Shown here piece by piece: positions 49,160 to 58,964 of a stretch of 64,000 nucleotides of DNA. The position numbers were made by a program, and so were the translations under genes. Numbering within the stretch: position 1 is the first letter of the stretch; the number at the start of each line of letters is the position of its first letter. Source of the DNA: Kibdelosporangium persicum (lineage in GTDB: Bacteria; Actinomycetota; Actinomycetes; Mycobacteriales; Pseudonocardiaceae); assembly GCF_013280595.1 (NCBI RefSeq), contig NZ_JAAATY010000023.1, positions 1-64,000 on the forward strand, read 5' to 3'. The notes beneath the pieces are model-generated. The model saw nothing but the letters and a program-made list of their open reading frames with translations, was not told where the DNA came from and did no database searches.

Positions 49160-52144
49160 GTGGAGTTTCAACTGCTGGGGCCGGTCCGGGCGTGGAACGA
49201 CGGCAGGCCGATCGACCTGGGGGTACGCAAGCAGCGCTTCGTGCTGGCGATGATGTTGCTCGACGCGAACAAACTGGTGCCGGCGCAACGGCTGGTCGAG
49301 CTGACGTGGCCGGAGGAGGCGCCGCGCAGCGCCCGAGGCGTCATCCACACGCATATCAGCAGGTTGCGGTCGGTGCTCAACGCCGCGGACGCCGAGCGGC
49401 ACGGCGTCGCGTTGATCAGCAACGGGCCGGGGTACATGCTCCGGTGCGACCCGAAGCGCATCGACGTCAACAAGTTCATGGAGCTGTGCGCCGAGGCGCG
49501 CGGCAGCGCCGACGACGAGACCCGCATCCGGATCCTGGACGAAGCACTGGCGCTCTGGGAGGGCCCGGCGCTCGCGTCGGTCGCCGCCGAGGAGGTCCGG
49601 ACCCGGCTGACCCGGCACCTCGACGAGGCCCGGCTGCTGGCCATGGAGCAACGGATCGACGCGCACCTGCGGCTGGGACGGCACGCCGAAGTGATCCACG
49701 AGCTCACCGAACTCGAGGCACAGCACCCGTACCGCCAGCAGATCGTGGCCCAGTTGATGCTCGCCCTGCACCGCAGCGACCGTGGGCCGGACGCGCTGAC
49801 CGCCTACCAGAAGCTGTACCACCGGCTTGACAACGAACTCGGGGTGGAACCGGCGCCCGCGTTGCGCGACCTGCAGACCCGCATCCTTCGTGACGACCCG
49901 TCGCTGAACCTCAACCCGAAGGAGAAGCTCAAGGCCGGACCCCGCCAGCTGCCGCCGGACGTGGACCACTACACCGGCCGGGCGCGGTACATCGAGCAGA
50001 TCTGTGAGCTGCTCACCCCGCAGCCGGGCGGCGTGCTGCCGGTCGTCGCGATCACCGGCAAACCGGGACTGGGCAAGACCGCGCTGGCGGTACGGGCCGG
50101 GCGCAGGCTCGTCGCCGAGTTCCCGGACGGCCAGTTGTTCATCGACCTGCAGGGCAACGGCCCACGCCCCCGGGACCCGAGCGAGGTACTGGCCCGGTTC
50201 CTGCGCGACCTCGGCGTCGACGGTGCCGACGTGCCGACCACTCTGGAAGAACGGGTCGGGCTGTTCCGCGACCGCACCGCGGGCAGGCGGATTCTCGTCG
50301 TCCTGGACAACGCGGCCACCGAACAACAGGTGCGGCCGCTGATCCCCGGCAACTCCGAATGCGCGGTGCTGATCACCAGCAGACGCCGGCTGACCGGCCT
50401 GGACATGCGCCAACTCGTCGACCTGGACGTGCTGGACCAGGCCGACGCGCTGGCGTTGCTGCGCGACCTGATCGGCGAGGACCGGCTGGCGAGCGCGGAC
50501 GCCAGCGCGCGCCGGATCGCCGACCTGTGCGGCGGCCTGCCGCTGGCCCTGCGGATCGTCGGCACCAAACTGCGGTCCCGGCCGCACCTGACCGTCGAGA
50601 CGCTGGCCGAACGCCTGGAGGACGAACGGACCCGGCTGGACGAGCTGGTCGGCGGCGACCGGGAGATCCGTGCCAGCTTCCTGCTCAGCTACGACAGCCT
50701 GGACGCCGAACACCAGCGGGCGTTCCGGCTGCTGGCGTTGATGCCGGACAACGGGCTGCCGCCGTGGGCGGTCGCGGCCGTGCTCGGCGTGGACCACCGG
50801 ACCTCGGAACGGCTGGTGGAGGACCTCGTCGACGTCAACCTGGTCGAGGCCGTGCCCGGCCGCTACCGGTTCCACGACCTGATCCGGTTGTACGCCCAGG
50901 AGAAACTGGCGGCCGACCAGGAACGGGACGCCGCGCGCACCAGGATCGTCAACGCCTACCTGTACCTGGGCAAACGCGCCGACGCGTTGCTGGAGTTCGG
51001 TGGGCTGTACCAGTTCGAGCCGCCACCGTTCACGCCGGACACGCCCGGTGTCCTCGCCGAGATCGACCGGGGCCCGGCCGCCTGGCTGGACCAGGAGTAC
51101 CCGGCGATCCTCGAGGCCATCGAGTACGCCGCCGCCCACGGCCAGGACGAACTGACCTGCCGGCTGTCCGCGACGGTCGCGGCCTTCTTCGAACTGCGGG
51201 CACAGTGGGCCGACCTGAAGCGCGTGGCCGAGCTGAGCCTGGCCGCGGCCGAACGCTTCTCCAGTCCTTATTGGACGGCGTACGCGCTGTTCGCGGCCGG
51301 TCTCGCGGCCAGGGAGACCAGGGACTTCCGCCGGGCCGAGGAGTCGTTCCGGGCGGGGTTGAAGATCCTGCCGCAGGCCGACGACCCCTTGCTGGAGGTC
51401 GTCACGCTGCTGTCGGTCGGTGTGGCCGAACGGTTGCAGGGCCGGTGGGACGAGGCCGCCAAGTACTTCGACGGGTGCCTGTCCGTGCTCGACGCACTCG
51501 ACAAACCCCGCTGGCGGGCCTACACACTGCGGGAATCCGGCGTGCTCGACCGGTATCGCGGCAACTGGGAACGGGCCGAGCAGCGGTTGCTCGCGGCGGT
51601 CGACACCTTCGAGCGGCTGGGCGACCAGCGCTGGATCGGGGCGTCCCTGCGGGAACTCGGGATCGTCCGCCGTCACGTCGGCGATCTCACCGGCTCGCTG
51701 GAGATCCTGATCAGGAGCCGTGACGAGCTGCGTGCCGCCGGCGACCCGCGGCGCGAAGGCGCGGCCCTGCGCTGCCTGGCCGAGACGCACCGCGCGGTCG
51801 GATCGCTCGACGAAGCACGCGCGTGTGCCGAGCGTGGCCTCGATGTCCTTGAGCTGACACTGGATTCGCACGGTCTCGCGTGCACCCGGATCGTGCTCGC
51901 GGACGTCCTGATCGACCTCGGTGACCTGGACGGTGCCCGTGCGCAGCTCGACAAGGGCCTTCAGGCGCTCAGTGTCAGCCGCGACCCGAGGTGGCACGGC
52001 AAAGCCCTGATCACCCAAGGCCGGTACCTGGCGGCCACCGGCGACACCACCGGCGCCGAGGCGGCCTGGGACACCGCACATCGGTTGTTGTCCGGCGTCG
52101 GTGCGGTCGAGGCCAGGCAGGTCAGCGAGTTGCTTGGTCGTTAG
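49160..52144 (+). CDS. AfsR-like regulator: wHTH, BTAD, NB-ARC, TPR
   Basis: A 994-aa regulator with the AfsR layout: winged helix (about 1-95: FQLLGPVRAWNDGRPIDLGVRKQRFVLAMMLLDANK), BTAD (98-245), NB-ARC ATPase (about 270-560, with P-loop ITGKPGLGKTAL near 298, RILVVLDNA Walker B and GGLPLAL) and C-terminal TPR-like repeats (about 640-990). AfsR proteins activate secondary metabolism after phosphorylation or ATP binding. GTG 49160 follows GGGGAGGT. It faces the STM4011-4015-type operon and overlaps its last gene by 4 bp tail to tail. Whether it controls that operon or the divergent sugar operon is open. Confidence 0.9.
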   Translation: MEFQLLGPVRAWNDGRPIDLGVRKQRFVLAMMLLDANKLVPAQRLVELTWPEEAPRSARGVIHTHISRLRSVLNAADAERHGVALISNGPGYMLRCDPKRIDVNKFMELCAEARGSADDETRIRILDEALALWEGPALASVAAEEVRTRLTRHLDEARLLAMEQRIDAHLRLGRHAEVIHELTELEAQHPYRQQIVAQLMLALHRSDRGPDALTAYQKLYHRLDNELGVEPAPALRDLQTRILRDDPSLNLNPKEKLKAGPRQLPPDVDHYTGRARYIEQICELLTPQPGGVLPVVAITGKPGLGKTALAVRAGRRLVAEFPDGQLFIDLQGNGPRPRDPSEVLARFLRDLGVDGADVPTTLEERVGLFRDRTAGRRILVVLDNAATEQQVRPLIPGNSECAVLITSRRRLTGLDMRQLVDLDVLDQADALALLRDLIGEDRLASADASARRIADLCGGLPLALRIVGTKLRSRPHLTVETLAERLEDERTRLDELVGGDREIRASFLLSYDSLDAEHQRAFRLLALMPDNGLPPWAVAAVLGVDHRTSERLVEDLVDVNLVEAVPGRYRFHDLIRLYAQEKLAADQERDAARTRIVNAYLYLGKRADALLEFGGLYQFEPPPFTPDTPGVLAEIDRGPAAWLDQEYPAILEAIEYAAAHGQDELTCRLSATVAAFFELRAQWADLKRVAELSLAAAERFSSPYWTAYALFAAGLAARETRDFRRAEESFRAGLKILPQADDPLLEVVTLLSVGVAERLQGRWDEAAKYFDGCLSVLDALDKPRWRAYTLRESGVLDRYRGNWERAEQRLLAAVDTFERLGDQRWIGASLRELGIVRRHVGDLTGSLEILIRSRDELRAAGDPRREGAALRCLAETHRAVGSLDEARACAERGLDVLELTLDSHGLACTRIVLADVLIDLGDLDGARAQLDKGLQALSVSRDPRWHGKALITQGRYLAATGDTTGAEAAWDTAHRLLSGVGAVEARQVSELLGR

Positions 52145-52539
52145 TGCCGCTGCGGCGGTTGCGGGTGCCATCCCTGGTGCGGCGCTTGCTGGTAGTAGGG
52201 ATGAGGCTGCTGCGGGCCTTGCGGACCGGGCTGGGCCGGCGCCGCCTGGGCGGTCGCGCGGTTACGCAGGCCGATCCGCAGGTTCTGGGCGCCGATGACG
52301 ATGACCAGCAGCCCGAACCCGATGCCGATGACACCGCCGACCGTCTCCGAGGTCCTGGTCTCCGCGAGACTGTCCTCGGAGACGACTGTGCCGCTCCGGT
52401 TCTCCCGGACGCAGACCTGGCCTTCGCTCATCGTCTCGCCGCCGCAGTCGACCTTGTCGTCGAGCAGGGCGAACGTGGCGGAGACGATGAAGAGCACGCC
52501 GAGCGCCATTCCCGCGCACGACCAGACGATTCGCTTCAC
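52141..52539 (-). CDS. Small two-helix membrane protein at the end of the radical SAM operon
   Basis: A 132-aa protein. The first helix is at about 4-26 (IVWSCAGMALGVLFIVSATFALL), a short Cys-containing loop follows (about 27-65, with CGG and VCV), the second helix is at 68-90 (VGGVIGIGFGLLVIVIGAQNL), and the tail is Pro/Gln/Tyr-rich and cytoplasmic. No family is recognised. The start GTG 52539 overlaps the stop of the radical SAM gene (GTGA), which makes it the sixth gene of the operon and a possible membrane partner. It overlaps the convergent AfsR-like gene by 4 bp. Confidence 0.65.
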   Translation of the reverse strand: MKRIVWSCAGMALGVLFIVSATFALLDDKVDCGGETMSEGQVCVRENRSGTVVSEDSLAETRTSETVGGVIGIGFGLLVIVIGAQNLRIGLRNRATAQAAPAQPGPQGPQQPHPYYQQAPHQGWHPQPPQRH

Positions 52540-53432
52540 GGACCGGGATGCTGCCAGCCGCTGCTTTCGGTTTTCTTCCGATCCGGCCGGCCCCGGCTCA
52601 GCGGGATGCGTTCCAGGATACCGCCCGCGAACACGTCGTACAGGCCGGTCTCTGCCAAGTGGACATAGCCGATGTGACAGTCGCACGTGGCCAGCGGGCA
52701 CGGTCGCGGTCGCAACGCGGCACGGAACGAGTCGTCATAGAGGTTGCCGATCGTCTGCGGGACGAAGTGGCACCGCTTCACCGTGCCGTCGCCGAGCACC
52801 GAGATCACGGTGTCGCCCGTGCGGCATGGCAGTCCTTTGCTCACGTGCGCGTGTCTGCTGTAGTGGAACAACGGGTCGATGTCCTGCCACAGCGCGGCTT
52901 CCGCGTCGGTGTAGGTGTGGCCCTCCGCCGCGTTCACCCAGACGTAAACGCTGTCCGGTAACGCCTCCCGCAGGCGACGAGCGCCATCGAGGTGTTCGGG
53001 GACACCGACGATCCCCACGCTGAAGCGGGCACCGAGCCGCATCAGCTCCTCGCACTTATGGACGAACCGGTCATGCGTCACCTGCGTCGGGTGATAGGTG
53101 ACCCAGAACGCCGCGGTGTCCAGGTCGCAGTCGGCGATCCAGCCGAGCCGGCAACTCAGGTTGGTCTGGATCGCCACCCGCCGGACATGCGGCATCCGGC
53201 TCAGCGCGACCATCGCGTCCCGGTACCACGACCGGACCAGCCCTTCACCCCACGGCGTGAACAGCACGGACACCTCGTCCGAGGTTCCGCCCACCCAGCC
53301 GGTGAACCGCTGCAACGCGGCACGATCGGCCCGCAGTTGCTCTCGGCTGTCCCTTCTTTTCGCGAACGGGCAGTATCCGCAGTCGTAGTCGCACGACGCC
53401 AACGGACCGCGGTACAGCATGGTCAGATGCAC
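52536..53432 (-). CDS. STM4011-family radical SAM protein
   Basis: A 298-aa radical SAM enzyme. The 4Fe-4S motif SCDYDCGYC (Cys14, Cys18, Cys21) opens the barrel. Cysteines near the C-terminus (LPCRTGD, KRCHF, RPCPLATCDCHIGY) resemble a SPASM-type auxiliary cluster, often used in peptide modification. I recognise it as the STM4011 family, named after a Salmonella cluster of unknown product. GTG 53432 lies 2 nt after the STM4012 stop. It probably works after or with the neighbouring radical SAM protein. The reaction is unknown. Confidence 0.8.
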   Translation of the reverse strand: MHLTMLYRGPLASCDYDCGYCPFAKRRDSREQLRADRAALQRFTGWVGGTSDEVSVLFTPWGEGLVRSWYRDAMVALSRMPHVRRVAIQTNLSCRLGWIADCDLDTAAFWVTYHPTQVTHDRFVHKCEELMRLGARFSVGIVGVPEHLDGARRLREALPDSVYVWVNAAEGHTYTDAEAALWQDIDPLFHYSRHAHVSKGLPCRTGDTVISVLGDGTVKRCHFVPQTIGNLYDDSFRAALRPRPCPLATCDCHIGYVHLAETGLYDVFAGGILERIPLSRGRPDRKKTESSGWQHPGP

Positions 53433-53434
53433 GG

Positions 53435-54718
53435 CTATCTCCGGTCGTACGCGGCCATGGCGGCACGGACGGCGGGCGAGAACAGCGCCGGGCCGATCGC
53501 GTCCGACCAGGCCAGGCCTTCGGGCGTGAGCTGTAACCGGTCTCCGCTGTCGACGAGCCAGCCACGGTCGGCCAACGCGGCCAGTTCGCCGAAGTCCTCG
53601 GTCACGTCCGTGCCGAAACGTTTGCGGTACCAGGCTTTCTCCAGGCCGTCGGCCTGGAGGACGGACTGCAGCAGATGCCTGCGGCGCTGTTCCGCGGCGT
53701 CCAGCGGAATCCCGACCTCGGCTCTGGTGAAGTCGGACAGGGGCCGCGACACGTAGTCGTCGATGATCCCGCGCACGGTGCCGGGACTCACCGCGTAGTC
53801 GAACGAATAGTGCAGGCCGCGGGTGTAGGACCGTGCGCCACAGCCCAGCCCGACCATGCCGTCGGACTGACACGAGTAGTCGTCACCGCCCAGTGCGGGG
53901 GCGTCGGCGCGCCGGAACATCCGCATGGACTGCTGCTCGTATCCCCGCGCCAGCAGATGATCGCGGCCCAGTGTGTACAGTCGCATCCGCTGCTCGTCCC
54001 ACTCCTGCGGGGTTTCGCGCCCGGCGAGACCGGTCAACGGCCGCACATACAGCGGGTACAGGTACAGCTCTTCCGGCTGCCACGCGAGCGCGGCGTCGAG
54101 CGACGCCAGCCACGTGACGTCAGTCTGACCGGTGATGCCGTAGATCAGGTCGATGTTCAGCACCGGGAACCCGGCTGCCCGGATCGCGTCCAACGCCGCC
54201 TCGACCGCGGCTCGTTTCTGCGGCCGCACGGCCGCTCGGGCCTCCTTGTCGTCGAAACTCTGCACCCCGCAGCTGATTCGCGTGACGCCCCGCCCGGCCA
54301 GCACGGCGAGGCGATCGGGCGTCGCGGTGTCCGGCGAGGTCTCCACCGACACCGGAATCCCGTCGAGGCCGACGATGTCGAACAGCCGATCGAGTTCCCC
54401 CGGCTCGAGGTAGGTCGGTGTACCGCCACCTATCGCGGCTTGGACGAACGTCGCTCGTCCGTCGAGCTCCTCGCGGACCGCGTTCGCCTGGCGCCGCACC
54501 GCGTCGAGATACCGCGTGACCAGCTCGGCCGGTGCGCCTGTCCGGGTGAAGAGGTTGCAGAAGCCGCAGCGGATTTCACAGAACGGGATGTGTACATAGT
54601 GGAACAACGCGTCCCGAGGCTCGTTCGCCCAGACATCCCGCAGTCTCGGTCGTGGTTCGAGCGGCCGGTACGCGGTCTTGTGCGGGTACGCGTACACATA
54701 GTCCTGGTAGGGCCTCAT
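53435..54718 (-). CDS. STM4012-family radical SAM protein (HemW/HemN-like)
   Basis: A 427-aa radical SAM enzyme. VHIPFCEIRCGFCNLFT carries CxxxCxxC (Cys47, Cys51, Cys54). GGGTPTYLEPGELDRLFDIV and SCGVQSFDDKEARAAVRPQ place it in the coproporphyrinogen-oxidase-like (HemN/HemW) group, but the operon context fits the STM4012 family and not heme synthesis. A C-terminal winged-helix-like segment (about 360-425) is as in HemN. The ATG overlaps the upstream hydrolase stop (ATGA). The substrate is unknown. Confidence 0.82.
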   Translation of the reverse strand: MRPYQDYVYAYPHKTAYRPLEPRPRLRDVWANEPRDALFHYVHIPFCEIRCGFCNLFTRTGAPAELVTRYLDAVRRQANAVREELDGRATFVQAAIGGGTPTYLEPGELDRLFDIVGLDGIPVSVETSPDTATPDRLAVLAGRGVTRISCGVQSFDDKEARAAVRPQKRAAVEAALDAIRAAGFPVLNIDLIYGITGQTDVTWLASLDAALAWQPEELYLYPLYVRPLTGLAGRETPQEWDEQRMRLYTLGRDHLLARGYEQQSMRMFRRADAPALGGDDYSCQSDGMVGLGCGARSYTRGLHYSFDYAVSPGTVRGIIDDYVSRPLSDFTRAEVGIPLDAAEQRRRHLLQSVLQADGLEKAWYRKRFGTDVTEDFGELAALADRGWLVDSGDRLQLTPEGLAWSDAIGPALFSPAVRAAMAAYDRR

Positions 54719-55524
54719 GTGGTCGCCTCCAGGAAGAACTCCGCGTACGGGACCGTCCAGACAACTTCGTGACCGAGACGGTGGCCGGTGTATCCGTCCT
54801 CGCCGTACGCGGTGCCGTGGTCGGAGCAGACGATCACGAAGCTCGGTCGCCGCAACGCCGCGAACAGCGGAGCCAGTTCGCTGTCGACGTACTCCAGCGC
54901 GGCGGCATGGCTGGCCAAGGTGTCGCCGTCCTGGCGGGTCCCGCCGGGCAGGTGGAACCAGTTCGGCTGGTGCAACGCGGAGACGTTCAGGAACAGGAAC
55001 AGCCGCCGATCCGCGGGCTGGGCCTCGACGACCTCCCTCGCTCGGTCGACCTGGGACCGTGTCGAGGTCGGTGACGTCACGCCGAAGCCGGGCGACCAGT
55101 GGCTCTCCGCGAACATCCCCGGCAGCACAGATCCCAGCGCGCCCTGCTTGTTGAAGAACCCGACACCGCCGACGCACACCGTGTGGTAGCCCGCTTCGGC
55201 CAGGCCACTGACCATGTCCGGTGCGTCGAAGACCCACGTGCCGCCGGCCGTGGTCGCACTGCCGGCGAACCGGGCCGCGAACAACCGCGGGTGCGGGCCC
55301 TGGCCGTCCGGGGTCGGCAGGAACCCGGCGAACATCGCGGCGTGCGAGGCGAAGGTGAAGTTGCCCGGCGCGTGCCGTCGCTCCCACCGCCCGCCGGGGA
55401 TCAGCCCGGCCAGCACGGGGGTTCTGCCTTCGTCGGCCAACGAGCACGCGACGTCGTAGCGCAGGGTGTCGATCGTGATCAGGACCAGGTCGTGGCTGCC
55501 GATCACGCTGTTCATGTCCGGCAT
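54715..55524 (-). CDS. STM4013/SEN3800-family hydrolase (alkaline-phosphatase fold)
   Basis: A 269-aa protein of the sulfatase/alkaline-phosphatase superfamily. Metal ligands are seen in LITIDTLRYD (Asp19) and VIVCSDHGTAYGEDGYTGHRLGHE. The nucleophile region APGNFTFASHAAMFAGFLP has Thr/Ser and no sulfatase CxPxR, so it is not a formylglycine sulfatase. It may be a phosphohydrolase or transferase. It is shorter than free-standing sulfatases. It overlaps the ATP-grasp-like gene by 13 bp and the radical SAM gene by ATGA. The role in the pathway is unknown. Confidence 0.8.
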   Translation of the reverse strand: MPDMNSVIGSHDLVLITIDTLRYDVACSLADEGRTPVLAGLIPGGRWERRHAPGNFTFASHAAMFAGFLPTPDGQGPHPRLFAARFAGSATTAGGTWVFDAPDMVSGLAEAGYHTVCVGGVGFFNKQGALGSVLPGMFAESHWSPGFGVTSPTSTRSQVDRAREVVEAQPADRRLFLFLNVSALHQPNWFHLPGGTRQDGDTLASHAAALEYVDSELAPLFAALRRPSFVIVCSDHGTAYGEDGYTGHRLGHEVVWTVPYAEFFLEATT

Positions 55525-56585
55525 GGCACACCCGTACAGGCAGCGACCTGGGCGGCGTACGTGTCCAGCCCCGCCGCCGGGCCGTCCGGCAGCCCGGTGA
55601 GCCGCGGCAGGAGATCGCCGAACGCGTTCACCTCACCGATCACGTGCCGCCGCCAGCCGATCCCGGGCAGCAGATCCACGCCGACCATCAGCGTCCGGCC
55701 GAACCGCGCCGCGGCCTTCTCGCACGTGTCCAGCCATTCGCGCCAGCGCGGCTCGCCGATGACCGCGCGCAGGCCGGCCACGTCCATCCGGGTGCCGCCC
55801 AAGTGCAGGTTGGTGATCGGATGACGGCTGGCCCGGACCACGGCGTGCGTCGCCTGGCCGGCGATGACGACCACACGCAGGTCGATGGTCCGGCCGTTGA
55901 GCGACGCCTTGGGAAACCAGCGTTCCACGTGCACCGGATCCACGCACAGGCGGTCCACCAGGTCGGCGACCTCGTCATCGCGATACGTGTGCACGCGCAG
56001 GCTGTTCATCAGCCCTTCCGGCGTCATCGCGACCGATGTCGTCGCGGCTGCCCGCGAACCATGCGCCGTCAACGCGACCACGCCCGAGGCCGACGACCCG
56101 TGCGCGGGTTTGAGGAACACCTTCGTCCACCCCCGCTCACGCATCTTCTCCCGCAACGTCGCGTAGCCATCGACACCGTCGATCGTCGGCGGCACCGGGC
56201 AACCAGCCTGCCGCAGGACCTCGTGACACCGTCTTTTGTCGAACATGACGGCGATATCGTCCACGTCGTTGAGCAGCCGTGCGCCCGGAGTACCCGCCAC
56301 GGTCTCGCGCAACCGTTGTAAACCCTTGGTGAACGCGGAGTACCACGCGCCACTACCGTCCACTCGGTACGGATGCGCTTTCGCTCCACGCAGGAGCCGG
56401 TCCACATACGGGTCCTCACCCGGCGAGTCCACGCGGACGAGGGAATCGGTCGGGATCGCACACGTTCCGGCGAGAATCTCCCGCCAGGCCACCACTTTCG
56501 CCGGTGGCAGGCCGGCCGCGCGGACAGCGTCGGCGAACATCGCCACGCGCCTGTTCCCCGGGTTGCCGACGACGACGAACTTCAT
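55512..56585 (-). CDS. STM4014-family protein (ATP-grasp-like)
   Basis: A 357-aa protein. The N-terminus is a small Rossmann-like region (MKFVVVGNPGNRR). The central part looks like an ATP-grasp: KVFLKPAHGSSASGVVAL near 155-172, RTIDLRVVVIAGQ and a late VGVDLLPGIGWRRHVIGEVNAFGDLLP with the metal-binding Glu/Asn. ATP-grasp enzymes join a carboxylate to an amine or thiol, which suits peptide or amino-acid ligation. It overlaps the LRR gene upstream by ATGA. It matches the STM4014 family by context. Confidence 0.78.
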   Translation of the reverse strand: MKFVVVGNPGNRRVAMFADAVRAAGLPPAKVVAWREILAGTCAIPTDSLVRVDSPGEDPYVDRLLRGAKAHPYRVDGSGAWYSAFTKGLQRLRETVAGTPGARLLNDVDDIAVMFDKRRCHEVLRQAGCPVPPTIDGVDGYATLREKMRERGWTKVFLKPAHGSSASGVVALTAHGSRAAATTSVAMTPEGLMNSLRVHTYRDDEVADLVDRLCVDPVHVERWFPKASLNGRTIDLRVVVIAGQATHAVVRASRHPITNLHLGGTRMDVAGLRAVIGEPRWREWLDTCEKAAARFGRTLMVGVDLLPGIGWRRHVIGEVNAFGDLLPRLTGLPDGPAAGLDTYAAQVAACTGVPCRT

Positions 56586-57508
56586 TCCGACACTGCCGTG
56601 TAGTAGTACGGCCGGCCGTTGTAGTGCTCCGGCTCCAGTGCTTCATCGAGGTTGAGCAGAACACCCTTGGACTCAAGCGCTTCGCGCAGCCGCTCGCGCA
56701 TCCGTTCGGAGAGGAAATGGTGGTGCAGGTCGAGGTTTCGCAAGTGCGTCAGGGAAAGCAGGTGCTGACCACCCTCGTCGGTCAGGATGCCCATGGACAA
56801 GTCCAGCGTCTCCAGCCTGCGCACGATGGCGGACTGGGCGACGAGCTCGCAGACGTGGTCCTGCCTGTCACTGTTCTGCAGGCCGAGCACCCGCAGGCTG
56901 GGCAGCCTGTCGCCGGCCAGCAGCGGTTCCAGGTCCTCGGGCCGCCAGTCGCCGCCGTACTCGTCGACACCGAGCCAGAGCCGCAGTTCCCGCAGCGCGG
57001 GCAGGTCCGACTGGGCCACCCCGGCGACCGCCTCGCTCGGCATGCCGCCGGTCTCGATGCGCAGGACCTGCAGATTCTCGTGCCGCACCGGGTGCAGCTC
57101 CAGCTCGTTGCCGCCACGGACAGCCAGTTCGGTCAACGCCGGGAAGGTCCGCAGCAGCGGGGTGATGTCGTCCTGCTCGATCCAGGAGATCTCGTTCTCC
57201 TCGCCGATGATGTCGCCGAGGAAGAGCCCGGTCAGCGCGGGGAACCGGTCCTTCTCGGCCAGCAGGAGGTCGATGACGGTGCCCGACCGGGTTCCGCTGC
57301 CCGCCTCACCCCAGTTGCCGATGACCAGCGCCCTGACCGCCGAAGTGTCCACTGTGGTGAGAAACCGCCGCCACAGTTGCTCGAACGTCTCGTCACTGTC
57401 CCACGTCTCGACGCCCAGGAACCACGTGGGCGTGCCCGGGACGTCCGCCGAGGTGAACTCGGTGACGCCCGAGCCGTGGAAGGTGCTGAGGTGTTCGTGG
57501 ATCTGCAT
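56582..57508 (-). CDS. STM4015-family leucine-rich-repeat-like protein
   Basis: A 308-aa protein that opens the operon. It has no signal peptide. From about 85 it shows irregular leucine-rich repeats (FPALTELAVRGGNELEL, LQVLRIETGG, LPALRELRLWLG, LPSLRVLGLQNS, LETLDLSMGILTDEGGQHLLSLTHLRNLDLHH), spaced about 25-45 residues apart. It is likely a binding scaffold and not an enzyme. ATG 57508 follows AAGGGGGCACG and is preferred over the upstream in-frame ATG at 57547. In related clusters an STM4015-type gene lies with the radical SAM genes, as here. Confidence 0.75.
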   Translation of the reverse strand: MQIHEHLSTFHGSGVTEFTSADVPGTPTWFLGVETWDSDETFEQLWRRFLTTVDTSAVRALVIGNWGEAGSGTRSGTVIDLLLAEKDRFPALTGLFLGDIIGEENEISWIEQDDITPLLRTFPALTELAVRGGNELELHPVRHENLQVLRIETGGMPSEAVAGVAQSDLPALRELRLWLGVDEYGGDWRPEDLEPLLAGDRLPSLRVLGLQNSDRQDHVCELVAQSAIVRRLETLDLSMGILTDEGGQHLLSLTHLRNLDLHHHFLSERMRERLREALESKGVLLNLDEALEPEHYNGRPYYYTAVSE

Positions 57509-57658: not shown

Positions 57659-58783
57659 TCAGGCTCGGAGCGTGATCACGGTGATCTCGCTGGGCGCGAA
57701 GACCCGGAACGGGGGACCCCAGAACCCGCTGCCCCGGGTCGTGTAGAGCTGGGTACGCGAACCGTGCCGCGACAATCCATGCACGACGCCCTGATCCAGG
57801 CGGACCAGGTAGTGGAACGGCCAGATCTGGCCGCCGTGCGTGTGCCCCGAGATCTGGAGGTCGACCTTGTCGACCGCCTGCTTGACCTGCTTTGGCTGGT
57901 GGGCAAGCAGGATCACCGGAAGATCCGGGTCGGCGCCGTCGAGCGCGCGCGTCAGGTCGGCGCCGTGGCCGTCGAGGCCGGACGCCCGTGCGGTGGCGTC
58001 GTCGACGCCCGCCAGCACCAGCCTGGCTGTGCCGCGTTCCACCACGATGTGCCTGTTGTGCAACGTTTCCCAGCCGAGACCGGCCATGTGGTCCAGCCAG
58101 GCCTGTGCTTCGCCGAAGTACTCGTGGTTGCCGGTGATGTAGGCCTTGGCCAGTCTGGATCGGACAGTCGCGAGCGGGGCGGCCTGGGCTTCGCGGCGGG
58201 ACGGTGAGCCGTCGGCGATGTCGCCCGCGTGACAGACGATGTCCGCGTCGAGGTCGTTCACCGCCGCGACGAGCCGGGCCGACCACCGGGCGCGGTCGAG
58301 CGGGCCGTAGTGCGTGTCCGAGATGACGACGAGCCTCGTGCCCGCCAGGTCTTCGCCGAGACGAGGGATGGTCACGTCGACGGTCCTGATCCTGGGCACG
58401 CGCAGTGCTTCGCGGTAACCCCACACCAGGAGCCCGATCGCGGCAATTGCGACAAACCCGGCGACGATCCGCGATCTGGCCGGATCGTCGACGCCGAGCA
58501 GTGCCAGTTCCAGGATCTGGCCGATCACCGACCACACGAGCAGGACCCAGATCGCGCCGAGGGTCGTGTCGCCGATCCGGGCCGCCCAGTCCCTGGCGCC
58601 CCTGTTGTGCCCCAGGTACATCATCACGGGGAACGCGACGAGCACGATGGCGAACAGGGCCGTTCCCGTCACGAACACGCCGGCCGGCCAGTCCGTGCCG
58701 GACCCGATCAAGGTCCACCAGGGGATACCGAACATGACCAACAGGACGGCGACCAGGATCAGTGCCCGGACAAGGCTTTTCAC
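57659..58783 (-). CDS. Membrane-anchored metallophosphoesterase (YkuE-like)
   Basis: A 374-aa protein. Four hydrophobic helices at the N-terminus (about 5-130) precede a calcineurin-like catalytic domain (about 155-370): VVISDTHYGPLDRARW, VCHAGDIADG, ITGNHEYFG, LLAHQPKQVKQA and ISGHTHGGQ. This is the YkuE/YaeI-like layout, thought to act on lipid-linked or nucleotide phosphates at the membrane. GTG 58783 is the likely start, placed just before the first helix; the frame stays open upstream but lacks a good start. Same strand as the STM operon, 150 bp upstream, so weak cotranscription is possible. Confidence 0.82.
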   Translation of the reverse strand: MKSLVRALILVAVLLVMFGIPWWTLIGSGTDWPAGVFVTGTALFAIVLVAFPVMMYLGHNRGARDWAARIGDTTLGAIWVLLVWSVIGQILELALLGVDDPARSRIVAGFVAIAAIGLLVWGYREALRVPRIRTVDVTIPRLGEDLAGTRLVVISDTHYGPLDRARWSARLVAAVNDLDADIVCHAGDIADGSPSRREAQAAPLATVRSRLAKAYITGNHEYFGEAQAWLDHMAGLGWETLHNRHIVVERGTARLVLAGVDDATARASGLDGHGADLTRALDGADPDLPVILLAHQPKQVKQAVDKVDLQISGHTHGGQIWPFHYLVRLDQGVVHGLSRHGSRTQLYTTRGSGFWGPPFRVFAPSEITVITLRA

Positions 58784-58964
58784 GAGGACAACGATAACTT
58801 CGCCGGAGGCGGTGCGGTTCCTGGTCCGCTTGGGCTGAGGAGAACCGGGCCGCGGAGCGGTGCCGACGCCGATACGCTGGGTAGTCGCGACACCAATTCG
58901 TAGCCTGTTCGAGTCCACGCGGGTATGGACTTCCGACCATCCGATTCGGACAGTCACCCCCGCT

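Follow-up and report, generated by a model that had tools for sequence, protein, structure and literature searches.

Some protein-modifying ligases act on the C-terminal glutamate of their substrate, as exemplified by RimK, whose target is ribosomal protein S6. In the case of LysX, the motif GSWGR reads the EDWGE sequence of the carrier protein (PMC10433800). A further paper describes how enzymes acting on amino-group carrier proteins use the acidic charges of the carrier and assigns a radical S-adenosylmethionine (SAM) enzyme to the 3-thiahomoleucine pearlin route (PMC9303977). Here, we report an entirely computational analysis of an operon located on a 64,000-nucleotide (nt) stretch of contig NZ_JAAATY010000023.1 of Kibdelosporangium persicum (hereafter, the window), which encodes members of the families STM4011 to STM4015, among them an ATP-grasp ligase, two radical SAM enzymes and a leucine-rich-repeat (LRR) protein. 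On balance, this operon probably specifies a system for the modification of a C-terminal glutamate, with the LRR protein STM4015 as the protein substrate. An initial sequence-only reading of the window had stated that the cluster has no assigned product, and the open-access literature, queried with the gene names, the family names and the combination of LRR, radical SAM and ATP-grasp, indeed yielded no paper describing the operon. Two papers (PMC3844500, PMC2784778) name STM4013 and STM4015 in tables, one on sigma-54 binding and one on positive selection, and assign no function to them there.

The sequence-only reading had also recognized five STM4011-STM4015 genes on a single strand, together with a gene for a small two-helix membrane protein. 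The NCBIfam profiles bear this out, placing all five family members (5/5) above their cut-offs, in the transcription order STM4015-4014-4013-4012-4011:

56582..57508, minus strand: STM4015-family LRR protein of 308 amino acids (aa), NF038076 360.5 bits (cut-off 275); proposed substrate or carrier
56585..56608, minus strand: codons of the C-terminal octapeptide YYYTAVSE with the terminal Glu308, the proposed attachment site; terminal Glu in 138/138 other family proteins
55512..56585, minus strand: STM4014-family ATP-grasp ligase, 357 aa, NF038074 422.6 bits (cut-off 175)
54715..55524 (start probably ATG 55515), minus strand: STM4013-family alkaline-phosphatase-fold hydrolase, NF038075 410.5 bits (cut-off 250), Pfam Sulfatase 44.1 bits
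53435..54718, minus strand: STM4012-family HemN-like radical SAM enzyme, NF006067 623.4 bits (cut-off 380)
52536..53432 (start probably GTG 53432), minus strand: STM4011-family radical SAM enzyme, NF038073 400 bits (cut-off 200)
52141..52539, minus strand: small two-helix membrane protein with a Pro/Gln-rich tail, 133 aa, as judged from its translation; genus-level accessory

The feature that most strongly suggests a role of STM4015 as a substrate is its C-terminal residue. The final set consists of 138 proteins that score at least 249 bits (the window's own protein excluded), 128 of them from Actinomycetota and ten spread over five other phyla; glutamate is terminal in every case, and none of the proteins extends beyond it. 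Earlier subsets gave the same picture (21/21, then 118/118 at a threshold of at least 250 bits), and among all 126 STM4015 frames, 123 end in glutamate, the three exceptions being low-scoring (57, 105 and 132 bits). This glutamate is the sole invariant residue of the tail, although an aromatic residue is found at position -6 or -8 in 138/138 proteins. It stands behind a linker of varying size, with the segment from L251 to the end measuring 52-71 residues and adopting 16 different lengths among the 137 proteins measured. Residues -28 to -9 are rich in Asp and Glu (36%, versus 15% in the body; 118 proteins). Moreover, paralogs within a locus are 74% identical over their last seven residues but only 16% over the preceding 15, as determined for 53 pairs from 26 loci by gap-free counting from the C-terminus. 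There are one to five STM4015 copies per locus (at a threshold of at least 250 bits), as opposed to single copies of the enzyme genes, and orphan copies with no operon beside them, found in Calothrix, Embleya, S. cadmiisoli and genome G161, retain the tail, with the Calothrix plasmid orphan ending in RYCSVAE. The enzymes STM4011, STM4013 and STM4014 do not have conserved terminal residues (most commonly R in 27/101, A in 28/95 and A in 25/95 proteins, respectively). An overlap with the next gene fails to explain the glutamate, because both of its codons (GAA and GAG) and every stop codon occur, also among the 35 of 117 copies that do not lie closest to STM4014, and in 31 of 117 copies no start codon overlaps the stop.

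The AlphaFold2 (AF2) model of the window's STM4015 protein has a predicted local distance difference test score (pLDDT) of 93.8, and its top match in Foldseek (E 1.9e-20) is 2ra8, the solved structure of a family member from Bacteroides fragilis. A Bacteroides homolog (L027:5513-6586) additionally carries an N-terminal WGR domain. The sequence-only reading had regarded the LRR protein as a mere scaffold for which a precursor was missing, whereas the invariant C-terminal glutamate suggests that STM4015 is itself the protein acted upon, be it as substrate or as carrier; with STM4015 in this role, no separate precursor peptide would be seen. LRRs commonly serve as scaffolds, and it is conceivable, though quite improbable, that the tail provides the enzymes with a docking or stability tag and nothing else, while they act on a small molecule next to a scaffolding STM4015. 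Such a role would fit the nearly invariant positions of the LRR body (W109 in 136/136, S108 in 135/136 and Y184 in 133/136 proteins) and the prediction of the tail with fair confidence rather than as a disordered segment. However, a tag would not have to end at one precise residue in proteins from six phyla, orphans included, and with linkers of 16 different lengths, and the neighboring STM4014 has relatives among the ligases whose site of action is a protein's C-terminal glutamate.

By profile and predicted fold, STM4014 is close to LysX/ArgX and RimK, consistent with its earlier description as an ATP-grasp-like ligase. Apart from its own family, its only matches in NCBIfam are LysX_arch, RimK and MptN, all of them far below the respective family cut-off (25.3 of 275.6 bits for LysX_arch and 24.3 of 143.4 bits for RimK). 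A profile comparison with the Protein Data Bank (PDB) returned the LysX structures 1uc8, 1uc9 and 3vpd first, followed by biotin carboxylase and RimK, and the alignment with LysX matches D-[IL]-R and R-S...I-T-N segments. Similarly, the AF2 model of STM4014 (pLDDT 92.7), when submitted to Foldseek, gave 3vpb, a structure of ArgX with LysW, as the first-listed match (E 1.9e-13; query template modeling (TM) score 0.53-0.57), followed by LysX and RimK. The residues associated with ATP and metal binding (D116, K117, K159, R237, R251, N259, D304, E318 and N320) are each kept in at least 93 of 95 family members.

The types of the remaining enzymes were also assigned correctly in the sequence-only reading, which had proposed two radical SAM enzymes, one of them with a C-terminal cysteine set, and an alkaline-phosphatase-fold hydrolase. 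STM4011 contains the radical SAM motif CxxxCxxC (Cys 10, 14 and 17) in 100/101 proteins, with one gap, and the additional C-terminal cysteines 199, 217, 241, 246 and 248 in 101/101. When two STM4011 proteins were scanned against Pfam, that of the window gave no match and that of Bacteroides matched SPASM at 18.3 bits, below the cut-off of 21.5. STM4012 has its best PDB profile matches in HemN (1olt, E 1.8e-51) and then NocN (9p2u, E 4.7e-32) and retains its radical SAM cysteines C47, C51 and C54 in 96/96 proteins. It scores below the equivalog cut-offs for HutW (124.3 of 400 bits), HemW (123.2 of 205.4 bits) and HemN (121.6 of 324.95 bits). In STM4013, D19, T57, D235 and H236 are invariant (95/95), and the metal residues of alkaline phosphatases are present. 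Its motif F-T-x-x-[SA]-H includes Thr57, at the presumed nucleophile position, and His61, both in 95/95 proteins. Type I sulfatases are characterized by a formylglycine motif (C/S-x-P/A-x-R), which is not present in STM4013. Given the alkaline-phosphatase fold with a threonine at the nucleophile position, phosphate-ester chemistry is likely for this enzyme. A phosphorylated intermediate is plausible as well, because in a Salmonella plasmid record (L026:8831-9565) STM4011 is overlapped by a gene for a HAD-IIB phosphatase, and the STM4011 protein of a Bacteroides record (L027:7965-9530) includes a fused HAD domain.

The sole PDB profile match of STM4011 is the C-terminal region of SkfB (E 1.3e-4), a maturase of ribosomally synthesized and post-translationally modified peptides (RiPPs), which raises the question of whether the tail of STM4015 could correspond to the core of a RiPP, with the large folded remainder as its leader, the radical SAM enzymes modifying aromatic residues of the tail and STM4014 making a lactone, a lactam or a C-terminal extension. 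The graspetide ligases PsnB and MdnC are among the top structural matches of STM4014, and a variable linker followed by a conserved tail with a constant aromatic residue could be read in the same way. Even so, we consider a RiPP-like function unlikely. The terminal glutamate alone is invariant, whereas the last eight residues of the 138 STM4015 proteins contain Lys in none, Ser or Thr in 76 and Cys in one case, and STM4014 has no graspetide match in NCBIfam. The lack of a constant Ser, Thr or Lys partner in the tail specifically disfavors graspetide-type rings.

The conservation of the operon was assessed in a set of 88 loci, comprising eight plasmid records (L022-L029) and 80 genome loci, with the genes sorted by their stop positions. 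The eight records are those of the first count among 13 plasmid-collection records with STM4011; four others were fetched later (L119, L121, L123 and L124), and one Salmonella record lay outside the sample. Together, the 13 records span the Actinomycetota, Pseudomonadota (alpha and gamma), Deinococcota, Bacillota and Bacteroidota. The genome loci represent the best 80 of 537 relatives, all of them Actinomycetota by title. Of the 88 loci, 78, representing five phyla, show the order 4015(n)-4014-4013-4012-4011 with all genes on a single strand; among them is that of Bacteroides (L027), in which only remnants of STM4013 and STM4012 are found (72 and 28 bits). The ten loci off this order lie on short contigs (L038, L042 and L101), have genes in pieces (L053, L084 and L108) or are gene-deficient in place, lacking STM4014 (L030 and L090), STM4013 (L069) or STM4015, STM4013 and STM4012 (L106). 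STM4014 still exceeded its cut-off in all five genomes or records searched for it (L030, L090, L069, L106 and L119), and only in L030 and L090 was it displaced from the operon. The displaced gene sits directly behind a second STM4015 copy (L166) or a 131-aa STM4015 remnant ending in VVVGE (L167), so that both STM4015 sequences ahead of it end in glutamate.

In genome-wide searches, STM4011, STM4013, STM4014 and STM4015 exceeded their cut-offs in the same 9 of 41 relatives, and an identical set of five genomes, out of 198 in a phylum sample, had STM4011 and STM4015 above cut-off; STM4012 lay outside these searches. The operon is thus real, and chance is excluded by the identical sets of genomes in which its families occur. 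The co-occurrence envisaged from the window alone holds, and the tight packing of the genes in the window, described as ATGA or GTGA overlaps or gaps of at most 2 nt, agrees with the preferred starts 55515 and 53432. ATGA overlaps connect STM4015 with STM4014 (56582-56585) and STM4013 with STM4012 (54715-54718), and a GTGA overlap connects STM4011 with the membrane protein gene (52536-52539). For STM4013, two Streptomyces relatives with the N-terminus MN suggest the start at 55515, which creates a further ATGA overlap with STM4014 in place of an overlap of 13 nt. Likewise, two Streptomyces relatives with the N-terminus MDLT suggest that STM4011 starts with GTG 53432, leaving a gap of 2 nt to STM4012 instead of 14 nt (ATG 53420).

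E. coli gave no megablast match to the Salmonella operon. At least seven viral contigs (L110-L116) encode weak STM4011 relatives with 22-25% identity, and no other family of the operon was found on them; three phage-collection records match STM4014, two of them assigned to Salmonella and one to Escherichia by name. A phage or virus origin was rejected, as among the matches listed the viral contigs gave weak STM4011 relatives only. A role in anti-phage defence was likewise dismissed, with 0 PADLOC matches for eight proteins.

Beyond the five families, one pair of genes frequently accompanies the operon. To compare the flanks, open reading frames of at least 60 aa were clustered for the 69 of 80 genome loci that exceed 15 kb, frames overlapping the operon or this pair were removed, and the 30 largest clusters were judged by eye rather than by profile annotation, a procedure that can miss short or divergent genes. 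The pair, consisting of a DUF6745 protein and a protein of ~100 aa (MYRQGDVL...), adjoins the operon in 52 of the 69 loci and also in L022, L023, L024, L028, L029, L123 and L124. In the genome loci, the pair and the operon occupy opposite strands, whereas they share one strand in Methylobacterium (L022). The N-terminus of the DUF6745 protein is LRR-like in appearance in Methylobacterium and Deinococcus. The pair was not found in the 64-kb window. This pair aside, none of the 30 largest clusters was present in more than 20 of the 69 loci. No separate gene for a short precursor peptide was seen in these flanks either, with peptides of less than 60 aa lying outside the search.

We infer a ligation and its site as follows. 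STM4014 would activate a carboxylate of the C-terminal glutamate of STM4015 and join it to the amino group of a small molecule, in analogy to LysX/ArgX acting on LysW and to RimK acting on S6. The linker and the aromatic/aliphatic tail would present the glutamate to the ligase, with the LRR body probably acting as a docking surface. STM4011, with its auxiliary-cluster-like cysteine set, STM4012 and STM4013 may build up the attached group or, alternatively, ready the amine ahead of its attachment. We lean towards a finished product in which the LRR protein bears a permanent C-terminal group rather than towards a released small molecule, because there are up to five STM4015 copies per locus, orphans with the same tail and no widespread neighbor besides the DUF6745 pair. 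The ligation would be the same but its fate different if STM4015 resembled an amino-group carrier, holding a small molecule on its terminal glutamate during synthesis and then releasing it. The kinship of STM4014 with LysX/ArgX, the acidic stretch ahead of the tail and the carrier logic described in PMC9303977 agree with such a function. We nevertheless regard it as rather unlikely, since several divergent STM4015 copies in one locus, plus orphans, would be unexpected for a carrier and the flanks offer no common candidate for later steps beyond the DUF6745 pair, although a housekeeping peptidase may still carry out the release. Returning to a permanent modification, it is tempting to speculate that the operon is dedicated to the installation of a new prosthetic group, built by two radical SAM enzymes, on the C-terminal glutamate of a family of LRR proteins and that the LRR surface, which varies between paralogs, aims this group at different partners or targets, a possible but doubtful elaboration of the model.

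Several observations weigh against the modification of STM4015 at its terminal glutamate. The great majority of the sequences that establish its invariance (128/138) come from one phylum, and locus L106 contains STM4014 and STM4011 with no STM4015 detected nearby. In the Foldseek search with STM4014, the graspetide ligase PsnB ties with ArgX (E 1.9e-13), and the query TM-scores listed reach only 0.47-0.61. The window's STM4014 protein lacks the GSWGR motif, and STM4015 and LysW are unrelated proteins. The linker of the window's own STM4015 protein is weakly acidic (net charge -2), and its tail (residues 301-308; mean pLDDT 85) is predicted fairly confidently and not as a free arm. Finally, terminal residues are conserved elsewhere as well, with K/R in 91/96 STM4012 proteins, T in 63/66 DUF6745 proteins and D in 31/32 of their small neighbors. 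Judging from the sequences, STM4015 is set apart from these cases by the full invariance of its glutamate over six phyla, behind a varying linker and in tandem as well as orphan copies.

The small membrane protein, confirmed as a sixth gene product of 133 aa with two hydrophobic stretches, matched no Pfam or NCBIfam family. Its gene is present in five of six operon loci fetched from the same genus, whereas loci L022-L124 and L154-L157 gave no sign of it. It therefore looks like a genus-level addition and was left out of the core of the operon. The sequence-only reading had placed the action of the enzymes at the membrane, which finds no support, as the membrane protein gene was seen in a single genus only. 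Thus, of its overall interpretation, the enzyme types and the co-occurrence stand, and the membrane site and the scaffold-only role of the LRR protein are not supported. On the side of the membrane protein gene, the operon is bordered by a convergent gene (49160-52144), which presumably encodes an AfsR/BTAD-like regulator and whose stop overlaps that of the membrane protein gene by 4 nt. At the upstream side, 150 nt from the operon and in the same orientation, lies a gene (57659-58957) for a putative metallophosphoesterase-like membrane protein.

If the proposed modification exists, the substrates of ligation to a C-terminal glutamate would include, besides LysW and S6, a folded repeat protein, and the system may turn out to hold a new cofactor borne by a protein or a new carrier for natural products. 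In addition, five curated families from five phyla would gain one testable chemistry, with a named substrate, residue and ligase.

Among the systems known to date, the LysW/LysX and ArgW/ArgX pairs share with the operon a LysX-like ATP-grasp ligase that is encoded together with a protein ending in glutamate after an acidic stretch. In amino-group carrier proteins, the amine is covalently bound to the gamma-carboxylate of this terminal glutamate. However, LysW is a cysteine-bearing protein ending in EDWGE, whereas STM4015 is a 308-aa LRR protein ending in YYYTAVSE, without EDWGE or zinc-binding cysteines, and the operon contains two radical SAM enzymes and an alkaline-phosphatase-fold enzyme but none of the later enzymes of the LysW pathway. 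RimK, like STM4014, combines an ATP-grasp fold with a protein substrate, as illustrated by its complex with RpsF (5zk6), but it has no radical SAM partners and makes poly-glutamate (according to the title of 5zct). Graspetide ligases (PsnB and MdnC) also resemble STM4014 in that they have an ATP-grasp ligase fold and act on a ribosomal precursor. Graspetide cores contain a constant Ser, Thr or Lys acceptor plus Glu or Asp, in contrast to the last eight residues of STM4015, which offer no constant partner of this kind. Pearlins (3-thiaglutamate and 3-thiahomoleucine) parallel our proposal in that amino-acid chemistry takes place on the C-terminus of a ribosomal carrier, as outlined in PMC9303977, but the carrier TglA is a 50-residue peptide that is loaded by means of cysteinyl-tRNA (PMC9016710) and not by an ATP-grasp enzyme. 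Within the STM4015 family itself, the solved protein Q64V53_BACFR (PDB 2ra8), deposited as uncharacterised, has a WGR-like N-terminus and a matched end (...YSYPMITE); the proposed glutamate site is not free in this structure, because eight further residues, probably a tag, follow it in the deposited chain. The logic of the ligation is already known, whereas this is not true of the carrier, of the set of enzymes or of the probable end product.

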